Position numbers and translations under genes: made by a program. Of a stretch of 42,579 nt of DNA, positions 32,335 through 41,786 are shown one piece after another. Location: assembly GCA_902779865.1 (NCBI GenBank), contig CACZDG010000009.1:1-42579 (forward strand), written 5' to 3'. Below the pieces are notes generated by a model that was not told the DNA's origin, did not search any database, and worked only from the letters and a program-made list of their open reading frames with translations. This stretch comes from an uncultured bacterium. GTDB taxonomy: Bacteria > Verrucomicrobiota > Kiritimatiellia > RFP12 > UBA1067. Positions within the stretch are counted from its first letter, which is position 1, and each line of letters begins with the position of its first letter.

Positions 32335-32505
32335 TTTTTGCGACAGGGAAAACGGAATCCCGTGAGAGTCGGGAGCTGTCGCGCAACTGTAACCGGATAC
32401 GAATCCGCGCTGACCAGTGGGGCCGGGTGGTTCTGCGAAGGATGCGGAAGAGGCTTGAAGCCGGAAGCCAGGAGACGCTCCCCGCCGCGTGTATGAACCT
32501 TCGCA
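32335..32505 (+). promoter_or_regulatory. Cobalamin riboswitch
   Basis: The leader holds the conserved cobalamin-riboswitch core: a perfect helix GCGACAG/CTGTCGC (32340-32346 with 32376-32382), GGGAAAACGGAATCCCGTGA, GCGCAACTGTAACCGG, and the B12 box GAAGCCGGAAGCCAGGAGAC near 32457-32476. Downstream, CCTTCGCA (32498-32505) is perfectly complementary to TGCGAAGG (32434-32441) inside the aptamer and lies next to AAAGG (32508-32512), the likely ribosome-binding site of the gene at 32525. This suggests control of translation by sequestering the start region when B12 binds. It begins only about 14-20 nt after the tRNA-His CCA end. Confidence 0.9.
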
Positions 32506-36256: not shown

Positions 36257-36332
36257 GGGGAAGTAGCTCAGTTGGTAGAGCATCACGTTCGCAACGTGAG
36301 GGTCGGCGGTTCGAATCCGCTCTTCTCCACCA
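36257..36332 (+). tRNA. tRNA-Ala (CGC anticodon)
   Basis: A full 76-nt cloverleaf. Acceptor GGGGAAG pairs with CTTCTCC and includes the G3-U70 wobble that is the alanine identity element. The D arm is GCTC..GAGC, the anticodon stem TCACG/CGTGA has loop TTCGCAA (anticodon CGC, reading GCG), the T arm is CGGCGGTTCGAATCCGCTC, and A73 plus an encoded CCA end at 36332. Confidence 0.95.
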
Positions 36333-36494
36333 TCCCCCTCATACACACACACACCAATTTAATCGTGTACACGCTACCCCGGTTTTTAAAGAATCGAGGA
36401 TGAAGCCGTATCGGTGGATGCCTAGGGGCTTCACAGTTGGCTACCAGGTCTATACTTCTCGTAGAGTACGCCCAGCTTGCTTGCAAACATGGGT

Positions 36495-36663
36495 GTCTGA
36501 AACATTATCGTCTGACAAAATCATACATTTGGTCTGACGAAATTACAAATAAGGTCAGACAAAATATAAAATAAGGTCAGACGATAATTACAATAATATC
36601 AGACCAAATATGAAATAAAGTCAGACAATAAATTCAATTTCGTCAGACTTTAATGCTTAATGG
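36495..36663. repeat. Iteron-like array: heptamer GTCWGAC at an exact 22-bp period
   Basis: Seven heptamers start at 36510, 36532, 36554, 36576, 36598, 36620 and 36642, exactly 22 bp apart. The core is GTCTGAC in the first two, GTCAGAC in units 3, 4, 6 and 7, and ATCAGAC in unit 5. Each is followed by a 15-nt tail, very A/T-rich in units 1-6, with a loose consensus AAAAT.A.AAATAAG. A partial eighth unit, GTCTGAAACATTATC, precedes them at 36495. GTCWGAC is an odd palindrome, so each unit can bind a protein symmetrically, and 22 bp places all sites on one face of the helix. No ORF or transposase is adjacent. Confidence 0.93.
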
Positions 36664-36945
36664 TCCCAGTCTGCACGTTGAGTTGTTGCCGATAAGAACG
36701 AGTATGGTCCCCGTATGACGAGAAGGGGATGGAAGAGCCCCCCACTGGGCGTACAGCGGGCTCTCGATGGCGTGCCTCGTGTTCGACTTCGTCGCGGACG
36801 CAAATCCAGTGGGGCAGTGCGCGACATGCGCGGTGATGAACGGGTTTTGTGACGGTTTCATCGTGGCGAGCGGTTGCCCCATTGAACTTCATTCCCCAAA
36901 ATCTTAAACTTTATAAATGCAAGAGCGCGTAGGGCTGTCACCGCT
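36664..36945. other. Gene-poor interval with possible structured RNA
   Basis: No convincing gene. Two overlapping minus-strand frames of about 80 codons (36643-36882 and 36650-36892) stay open, but I recognise neither. The DNA holds a perfect stem AGAGCCC/GGGCTCT (near 36734-36764) and a 9-bp inverted repeat CCCCACTGG/CCAGTGGGG (36740-36748 with 36806-36814); the two are mutually exclusive. The earlier stretch 36333-36494 contains a CA microsatellite, CGTGTACACG and an inverted repeat TGAAGCC/GGCTTCA, and also no gene. Confidence 0.35.
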
Positions 36946-37615
36946 ATGGGCGTCGTTCTCTGTTGCACGCTTTTCACAATGTCCGCGTTCGCGGAGTTGT
37001 GCGTCGATGGCGTGGGCGTGATGTCAATCGCCGGACGCTGGAAGTTTGCGCTCGGCGATTCCACGAACTGCACGGATGTGATCGACCTTCCGTCAACAAC
37101 CGACATCGCGCGGAAGGGCAACGGTCGAATCAACGCCAGGGAGTTGGAGAAAATCGACCCCATGCGCGACGACGCTTACCTCACGGACGCCCTTACGCGC
37201 CATCCAACGCGCCGCTTCCCCTACGTGGGCCCCGCCACGTACGAGCGTGACGTTGACGTTCCGGCGGAATGGGCGGCCCGTGTTTCTGCGCGGACGCCTT
37301 GACTCGTGCGTATGGCCGCTCACGGGCGCCCCGCCGATGGAGGTGGAACCATGGCGGCGGTACTTCGCCACGCTGAAGGAGTACGGACTCAACCACGTCC
37401 GTTTCCACTCGTGGTGTCCGCCTGAAGCCGCGTTCGAGGCCGCCGACGAGGCGGGGTTCTATCTCCAGCCCGAGTTCGCGTCGTTCGGCGGTGACATGGG
37501 TCGGAATGTCCGTCTTCGCACGTACTGTCTGGCGGAGTCGAAGAGGATATTGGACGCCTACGCGAACCATCCGTCGTTCGTGATGTTCACGCTTGGAAAC
37601 GAGTACTGCAGCGGG
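36946..37615 (+). pseudogene. Decayed GH2-type glycosidase, two out-of-frame pieces
   Basis: Piece one (36946-37302) has a signal-like N terminus (MGVVLCCTLFTMSAFAE) and a GH2 sugar-binding start: SIAGRWKFALGD, VIDLPSTTDIARKG, YVGPATYERDVDVP. Piece two (about 37270-37612), in another frame, is the start of the GH2 barrel: NGRPVFLRGRLDSCVWPL, LKEYGLNHVRFHSW, AADEAGFYLQPE, FVMFTLGNEYC. The immunoglobulin-like middle of the enzyme is missing at about 37270 and everything after the acid/base region is missing at about 37612, where a different gene begins. It cannot yield a working enzyme. Confidence 0.75.
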
Positions 37616-38380
37616 CAATGGACGCCGGGATCAAGGGGAAGTGGACGCACGAGGACCAGAAACACGAGTTCGTGCCGTACAAGCAGGAGTTTGACGAGTT
37701 CTGGGACGACCCCGTGTTCCTCGCCAAGGTGGAGCAGTTTCTCAAGGCGTTTGCGGCGCGGTACGACGGCAACCCCGATGTGGCGTTCGTCGACCTCGGG
37801 TCGCTCGGCATCTACGGGGAATGCCACACCTCGAAGTTCAACAAGGAAGCAAAGGACAAGCCGGAGCGGTTCCGCAGGATCGCCAAGATGCACCTTTCGC
37901 TGTTTCGCCGATGCCTGCCGAACACGTACCTAGTGCATAGAGGCGTACCATGCGAGCTATTTCTCCACGCACAGTTTCCCCGACCTCTACTGGGAGGTGA
38001 ACAAGGGCGTGTGGACCGAGACGGCGAACCGCCTCGGATATCGTCTGGAGCTGCGGCGCGTTGAGTATCCCGAGGTCGTGAAGGTGAACGAGCCCGTCGT
38101 CGTGAAATCGACGTGGGTGAACGTCGGCGTCGCCCCTCAGTACGGAAATGCGACGCTGACGTGGAACCTGCTGAACGACAAGGACGTCGTGCTCGACTGG
38201 TTCGTCAAGCACAAGCGGAACCTGCCTGGCGAGAAGGTCGAGCTGCTCAAGCCCGGCATCTACACGCTTGCCGTATCCGTGGGACGCAAGGACGGCAAGC
38301 CTGAGATCGCGCTACCGCTTGAAGGCGGCATTGATCGGATCTATCCAGTCGGCAAGATCGAAGTAGTGAACAAGAAATAA
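37615..38380 (+). pseudogene. Decayed DUF4832-type glycosidase-like gene, fused to the GH2 remnant
   Basis: The frame from 37618 reads WTHEDQKHEFVPYKQ, FAARYDGNPDVAFVDLGSLG and IYGECHTSKF, the barrel part of DUF4874/DUF4832-like secreted glycosidases. After LPNTYLV (about 37935) a deletion shifts the frame; the next frame reads AYHASYFSTHSFPDLYWEV, then the C-terminal beta domain (LGYRLELRRVEYP, VVVKSTWVNVGVAP) to the stop at 38380. The N-terminal part is absent. Family naming is moderate; the frame breaks are clear. With the preceding piece this is a chimera of two different enzymes. Confidence 0.65.
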
Positions 38381-38461: not shown

Positions 38462-38574
38462 GTCAATTCACCGAATGTAACCCGTTGAATTTGCCGAATG
38501 GAATCTGTTGAATTTGCCGAATGGAATCTGTTGAAATTGCCGAACGGAATCCGTTGAAATTGCCGAATGGCTAT
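38462..38574 (+). repeat. 23-bp tandem array upstream of a promoter
   Basis: Four good units beginning GTTGAA at 38484, 38507, 38530 and 38553 (exact 23-bp period) share GTTGAAWTTGCCGAAYGG plus a short tail. A degenerate fifth copy (GTCAATTCACCGAATG) starts at 38462. The array runs right up to the -35 box of the promoter at 38574, a position suited to operators or activator sites. Confidence 0.9.
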
Positions 38575-40987: not shown

Positions 40988-41075
40988 GGCGGCAAGTTTC
41001 AGTTGGACACAGGGTAAGGACGGCATTTCACATGCAGTCCGTCCCTCTGACGCGACGAACAAAGGAGAAAAAAAC

Positions 41076-41786
41076 ATGCAGAAGCGCATAAATATCAAGG
41101 CAGTCACTCGCGAGAAGGATGCCGCCGGGAAGTTTCAGGCGAACCTGACGCCGAACGCGACCCTTGAGGGAAAAGAACTCATCGAGCGGTGGGCGGATTT
41201 TTCCCGATTGAACGCCGCGCAGGCAGAGACAACGTTGGTACTGCTGAAGGGCTTCATCCTGGATGAGCTGGCCAAAGGCAATAAGCTCGACTTCGGGCTG
41301 GTGTCGTTCTATCCAAGGCTGTCCGGCGCACTTTCCAGCCGCGATTCCTCGCCGGGCGCCGAGGGGCTTTACGTGCGCGGGGCGGTGAAGGCGAGACGCC
41401 CGCTGATGAACGGGCTGAAGGACAAGCTGGAGGCGGTGAATGGTCTCACAACGGTCCAGGCGCACATCTACAATGTCTTTGACAAGACGGCAAAGCGCTT
41501 TGACGTGCTGGCCACCGGCCATGTCCTGAGCGTTGCGGGATATGATATCTCCGTGGACGCCGCGAAGGAAGACGAGGGCGTGTGGCTGGAACGGCGGACG
41601 CACAAGGGCTACGAGCGCGTGACGAAGGGAAGGGTCGTCGGCTACTCGCCGGACCTCACGGAAGTCATCTTCGACGAACAGATCGCGCCTGGAATATACG
41701 TGCTGGCGTTCTACACGCGCTGCAGTCATGGCGAAGGCTACCGCGTGGTCCGCGTGAGCCGCAAAATACGCGCGATAGCACCATGA
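41076..41786 (+). CDS. HU/IHF-like DNA-binding protein with C-terminal domain (DUF4469-like)
   Basis: A 236-residue protein. The first 120 residues resemble the enlarged HU/IHF-like domain of DUF4469-type proteins: LIERWADFSRLNAAQAETTL, LDELAKGNKLDFGLVSFYPRL, GLYVRGAVKARRPLM. The rest (FDVLATGHVLSVAGYDISV, VWLERRTHKGYERVTKGRV, VIFDEQIAPGIYVLAFYTRC) looks like an immunoglobulin-like DUF4469 C-terminal domain. Such proteins are thought to be nucleoid-associated. The ATG at 41076 follows AAAGGAG with good spacing; the frame is open to 40842 but nothing there looks coding. It has its own promoter and operator-like repeats, and the next gene also starts from its own TATAAT. Confidence 0.75.
   Translation: MQKRINIKAVTREKDAAGKFQANLTPNATLEGKELIERWADFSRLNAAQAETTLVLLKGFILDELAKGNKLDFGLVSFYPRLSGALSSRDSSPGAEGLYVRGAVKARRPLMNGLKDKLEAVNGLTTVQAHIYNVFDKTAKRFDVLATGHVLSVAGYDISVDAAKEDEGVWLERRTHKGYERVTKGRVVGYSPDLTEVIFDEQIAPGIYVLAFYTRCSHGEGYRVVRVSRKIRAIAP

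Follow-up and report, generated by a model that had tools for sequence, protein, structure and literature searches.

The window, by which we mean the whole stretch of 42,579 nucleotides analysed here from an uncultured bacterium of the Kiritimatiellia, contains an array of seven GTCWGAC sites that probably represents a strayed duplicate of the region controlling an HU-type gene, the gene itself being located elsewhere in the genome. More specifically, sequence comparison makes it fairly likely that this is an orphan copy of the binding array of a cognate HU-superfamily protein, the intact gene of which stands behind a GTCWGAC array on contig C48. The features of the window that bear on this reading were as follows:

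36257..36332, + strand, tRNA-Ala (anticodon CGC), a neighbour of the array with no shown link to it
36488..36494, no strand assigned, degenerate eighth unit GTCTGAA, in phase with the array
36510..36648, no strand assigned, GTCWGAC array of seven sites at 22-bp spacing (starts 36510, 36532, 36554, 36576, 36598, 36620 and 36642)
36649..36701, + strand, diverged promoter/leader relic, the counterpart of the region after the array on C48, delimited by alignment to the copies on C38 and C154
40992..41786, + strand, HU-like gene of another type (PF14734 DUF4469, with PF14848 below its cut-off)

The start positions confirmed the seven sites at exactly 22-bp intervals that an earlier note on this DNA had described beside the tRNA-Ala gene. 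The partial eighth copy and the switch of the central base, from T in the first two units to A in the other five, were likewise recovered; the span given at that time (36495-36663) omits the eighth unit and overshoots the last site by about 15 bp. Six of the seven units are perfect GTCWGAC, and unit 5 reads ATCAGAC. A two-unit pattern allowing up to two mismatches gave six matches in the window versus a mean of 0.47 expected, and none of 100 shuffles reached six. The 15-nt tails, noted earlier as AT-rich, follow a position-specific pattern in 42 spacers (six per array, seven arrays), with G/C in 86% at position 1, A/T in 90-100% at positions 2-5 and 11-14, and G/C in 74% at position 15. The unit is therefore nearer WWWWSGTCWGACSWWWW followed by five looser bases.

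The genome of origin (G000; 4.3 Mb, 272 contigs) was searched with the two-unit pattern at one mismatch. Twenty-five forward matches were obtained versus one match per strand for the reversed control pattern, and this control, together with the shuffles, ruled out a chance origin of the window array. Twenty-four of the matches fell in four arrays, located on C9 (the window), C38, C48 and C154. In the six pairwise comparisons of these arrays, the core positions were identical in 246 of 252 cases (98%) and the spacers in 317 of 540 (59%), with the spacing unchanged; the central W agreed in 24/42, the left 40 bp in 124/240 and the right 40 bp in 167/240. Because the distant copies keep cores and phase while their spacers diverge, a purely local tandem duplication was rejected as the origin of the window array. 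The earlier note had allowed for such a duplication, or for chance, should the array prove solitary; three more GTCWGAC arrays at 22 bp in this genome and others in relatives, with conserved cores and phasing, remove that doubt and lend support to its proposal of putative sites for a repeat-binding protein, or an orphan operator array.

Among 60 genomes, comprising G000 and its relatives, true GTCWGAC arrays were found in two, G000 itself and G010 (89% complete; six arrays), and two further genomes contained one site pair each. A scan of public genomes for three phased units yielded at least 113 stretches versus about 0.5 expected from a simple base-frequency estimate, and three phased sites were also present in 11 viral contigs. 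Arrays were read by eye at 91 of these 124 loci, plus L138 and L165 from the other 33. Most of the 91 were ordinary tandem repeats of other lineages; arrays like that of the window, whose spacers vary and whose unit number ranges from 4 to 9 (seven being commonest), occurred in UBA4286, CAMPAA01, RGIG9733, RGIG10004 and RUG10619. Within 6 kb of 20 GTCWGAC arrays, no protein family was common to more than three, through-array frames excepted, and the link to an HU-like gene came from the arrays at C48 and L063 rather than from recurrence around the 20. As separate observations, two Spirochaetaceae drafts (L076, L104, L113, L117, L126 and L128) contain many GTCAGAC arrays with a period of about 22 bp and repetitive spacers, the draft of L113 also having five PF14848 matches, and Flavihumibacter stibioxidans (L066, L069, L097, L103 and L114) has several GTCWGAC arrays with an 11-bp half spacing and a changing centre base.

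On C48, the array, identical in motif and 22-bp spacing to that of the window, ends 74 bp before a 257-codon open reading frame encoding a PF14848 HU-type domain (33.5 bits, above the cut-off of 30; E 4.9e-8). A promoter (TTGCAT-17-TATACT) and a ribosome site (AAGGAG) were read by eye between the two. The same order of array and HU-like gene was found in CAMPAA01 (L138) and RGIG10004 (L165), and CAMPAA01 has at L063 a second copy of the array and start region, followed by a short gene remnant. The earlier note had sought the gene for a binding protein beside the window array; the likely gene is the one on C48, behind the same array. As three of the four G000 arrays are orphans with their cores kept, the GTCWGAC sites appear to have been retained at loci that lost the gene. 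Across the phylum, 11 of 288 genomes gave hits at E<=1e-8, all inside the order. No close relative of the C48 protein was found in the array-bearing G010, UBA4286 and RGIG9733, which weighs against the proposed reading. A structure model of the L138 protein was too weak to use (mean pLDDT 43.6, pTM 0.31); its predicted order of two helices, two strands and then further strands would fit an HU domain followed by a beta domain.

The window copy can be aligned with those on C38 and C154 up to 52-53 bp beyond the array end, and the homology stops near there. Read by eye, the -10 box of the C48-type promoter region is gone from the window copy, and no HU-like gene follows close behind the array. 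The HU-like gene at 40992..41786, 4.3 kb beyond the array, is a paralogue and probably not its partner; its upstream periodicity is borderline (score 0.52 at lag 22, matched by 1 of 200 shuffles). Pfam scans of the nine neighbouring frames detected no transposase, ParB or Rep, in line with what the earlier note had stated for replication, partition and transposase genes, and no mirrored second end was found, the 42.6-kb window having only one such array. Phased repeats of similar length are also a feature of Tn7/Mu-like transposon ends, plasmid iterons and partition sites, but it is highly improbable that the array belongs to any of these, given that it is single, that no TnsB/TniA-type, Rep or Par gene occurs in the nine frames, that at least three unrelated array types exist in one genome, and that neither plasmids nor phages gave a relative of the C48 protein at E<=0.01. 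The transposon end proposed earlier also finds no support in the flank behind the array, whose homology is with the region controlling an HU-like gene. Among viral contigs, no relatives of the L138 protein were found.

When relatives were searched with the C48 protein, 22-bp-phased arrays with differing motifs were found before other HU-like genes. Fourteen such proteins were combined in a profile (A1); of 116 genomes from the order, 37 contained matches to it at E<=1e-5. In Pfam (E<=0.01), 12 of the 14 matched PF14848 HU-DNA_bdg, two PF18291 HU-HIG and one PF14734, and 4fmr was the sole PDB match at E<=0.001. Periodicity was then scored in 330 bp upstream of each gene and compared with 200 shuffles of single bases, the score limit of 0.58 having been set after the first scores were seen. 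As a result, a significant array was detected for 43 of the 64 first or only HU-like genes of the own family (39 at period 21-24), versus 3 of 67 control genes of the same loci (Fisher, p = 6e-15). Two of the three significant controls overlap upstream regions of HU-like genes (88 and 208 bp) and the third abuts one; controls sharing a 40-bp upstream piece with an HU gene had been removed before the 67 were counted. The 43/64 leaves out L138 and L165, both found via the array pattern, and the own-family tally was 48/71 before removal of these two, the L213/L255 duplicate and near-identical genes. With all 14 profile loci taken out, 32 of 52 were still significant. Over all genes, 52 of 100 were significant after near-identical ones were removed (46 at a best period of 21-24, 32 at exactly 22), compared with 55 of 107 before, L191 having been dropped as an N-run artefact (108 to 107). 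The near-identical rule, a shared 40-residue stretch, also cost some separate genes. The tested set did not include four hit frames whose upstream DNA was too short, or the regions L230 and L263, which yielded no tested gene.

Some counts weigh against the proposed reading: no significant array preceded 21 of the 64 first or only own-family genes, or 13 of the 17 such genes of family f3 (the other four being significant). Of the 17 second genes of apparent operons, 3 were significant. All but one of the 14 A1 genes passed; L170 failed, and an 11/22-bp repeat appears there if the start is taken further upstream. In Bacteroides and Parabacteroides, all 21 PF14848 loci stayed below the score used here; this is a weak test, as wrong frames were picked at some loci, among them L267, the gene of which carries an array (as L165). 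The median distance from array end to start codon was 74 bp (49 arrays), and a TATAAT-like box was not enriched before the starts (22/49 vs 405/980 shuffled). Outside this count, two successive HU-HIG genes in Bacteroidales UBA5371 are preceded, at a distance of about 80 bp, by a GTCAGAC array, and in UBA5515 a 22-bp array precedes a frame of uncertain start at one PF14848 match (L284). Apparent two-gene HU-like operons were also observed (L227, L240, L248, L259 and others), with a first gene of about 205-235 codons, often with an array, and a second of about 320-365 codons, usually without.

The array motifs differ from gene to gene; those recognised by eye include GTCWGAC, ATCTATCGGTAGAT, ATGTGCCACAT, TCGTACGA, TGTCARYTGACA, AAAGTATCGATACTTT and GCGCGGTAGAC. 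By a column test, 32 of the 46 arrays of period 21-24 were palindromic (at most 10 of 200 column shuffles as good) and 14 were not, L174 and L171 among them. A separate regulator encoded elsewhere might bind the arrays and govern other loci along with the HU-like genes, with the HU-like protein as no more than a target, as would suit arrays placed so close upstream of genes (the 74-bp median) and the three genomes that have arrays with no cognate gene detected. This is improbable in our judgement, since many motifs would need one private regulator each, and since the C48, L138 and L165 proteins, 72-75% identical with one another, have GTCWGAC in common, whereas the pairs L174/L167 and L168/L173, at 67-68% identity, already have different motifs. 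An action of the array as RNA, through its self-complementary units, is hardly credible. Strong folds were predicted (z -7.4 to -12.7; three arrays, one on both strands), but folding is built into palindromic repeats, the predicted pairing varies between copies, the mirror complementarity of the W centres (12/21) is at chance level, and no Rfam family reached threshold over the array.

Besides the arrays at their genes, G000 contains three others with the GTCWGAC motif, three with ATCTATCGGTAGAT and four with ATGTGCCACAT, and G021 contains seven others with GCGCGGTAGA; the reversed-pattern control gave 0 in the searches for ATCTATCGGTAGAT, ATGTGCCACAT and GCGCGGTAGA. Truncated HU-gene remnants adjoin some of these orphans: those of ATCTATCGGTAGAT on C71 and C95 include, as well as the array, the leader and roughly 20 codons from the start of the gene, and behind one in G021 lies an internally deleted gene remnant. 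The eight G021 arrays that have a motif in common differ little across the array, in mostly unrelated flanks, and recent spread would also explain their near-identity. Of the 17 orphans, 16 were examined for their flanks, in a survey that skipped frames overlapping arrays and thus yields distances, not proof of intergenic placement; 12 were flanked by frames on both sides, and four of these 12 lay between convergent frames, which argues against these four being simple promoter operators for their neighbours.

The dispersed copies with common flanks, the 74-87% identity of G000 orphans of one motif over 376-447 bp, and the near-alike G021 set would also be expected if the arrays were minisatellites in small dispersed MITE-like elements and the HU-like genes merely their hosts. 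The model for this is BrickBuilt of Porphyromonas gingivalis, the nearest printed parallel among the literature found, described in the accessible part of its report as dispersed intergenic 23-nt tandem repeats at 19 places, with a leader and a tail in most copies and promoter activity in E. coli tests (PMC4596501). One of the 19 BrickBuilt copies adjoins a PF00216 (HU-type) gene; however, copies have up to 22.8 repeats, and in that part of the report the authors describe a MITE with no HU link (PMC4596501). We consider a MITE-like origin unlikely for the arrays studied here, because no terminal inverted repeat or target duplication was noticed by eye in the two orphan-set alignments viewed, no transposase family was seen in the nine frames near the window array, the motif varies with the HU-like paralogue, and the GTCWGAC set keeps its cores while spacers and flanks diverge.

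Under the preferred reading, in which the HU-like protein is the binder of its own array, one dimer would occupy each unit, its 2-fold axis passing through the central W, and its arms would be able to reach the A/T tracts on either side. The HU fold is dimeric and arm-bearing, and a dyad-symmetric unit with A/T tracts on either side suits it. HU and IHF proteins are minor-groove binders, so a G/C-containing core motif is unexpected for an HU-type protein. The two-turn spacing would place all dimers on one helix face, where their loading may be cooperative and may wind some 154 bp of DNA into a coil. At an HU-like gene, the promoter-side array may switch the gene's own promoter; such autoregulation is suggested by the position of the arrays close upstream of the start codons. 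Orphan arrays may have arisen via duplication and gene loss and may still bind the protein in trans, and stray copies like that of the window would be either further binding sites or decaying relics.

In ParR/parC centromeres and plasmid iterons, phased sites likewise lie upstream of the gene for their binding protein, with autoregulation. The arrangement here, where the binding protein is putative, differs in the protein family, in the several unrelated arrays per genome and in the lack of a Rep or Par gene among the nine window frames scanned. The closest known proteins are those of the HU superfamily (PF14848 and PF18291); the proteins studied here have an HU-like domain and a C-terminal part, which in some members is Ig-like as in PF14734 DUF4469 (PDB 4fmr). 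Gene-specific phased arrays, present here, did not turn up in the literature on this superfamily: among the matches listed, with subscription journals mostly outside, HU-family genes with private phased arrays were not reported, and no tested function for PF14848 or HU-HIG proteins was found in the literature searched. Such proteins are numerous in some genomes, Parabacteroides gordonii having 23 PF14848 matches, and Burroughs and colleagues reportedly proposed in 2017 that the expanded HU families of Bacteroidetes act against mobile elements. In Treponema, the accessible part of the TrtA paper mentions PF14848 for one gene, TDE_2259 (PMC12724145).

We tentatively offer a wider scheme, itself rather doubtful, of many orthogonal pairs of HU-like protein and array, in which each paralogue would have drifted to a private two-turn code, regulate itself and bring its several matching arrays from across the chromosome together in one nucleoprotein structure, as a fast-diversifying marking of the chromosome. 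If this is true, the target of each subfamily protein could be read straight from the genome and its function made testable. The fold of a family regarded until now mainly as unspecific packaging would then be able to evolve many orthogonal sequence specificities rapidly, and dispersed minisatellite elements such as BrickBuilt could possibly be read in the same way.

Several further observations were made in the window. Between the tRNA-Ala gene and the array, the stretch at 36385-36440 containing CGGTGGATGCCTAGG resembles by eye the start of a 23S rRNA; for this flank, near 36400, E. coli genomes contained no counterpart and Rfam yielded nothing at the gathering score. In the gap between two frames, at 38471-38570, lies a further tandem repeat (4.3 copies of period 23, 90% match). 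A glycoside-hydrolase-like gene at 36946-38380 is seemingly split across several frames, and a cobalamin riboswitch at 32354-32476 is located immediately 5' of a 595-codon frame.
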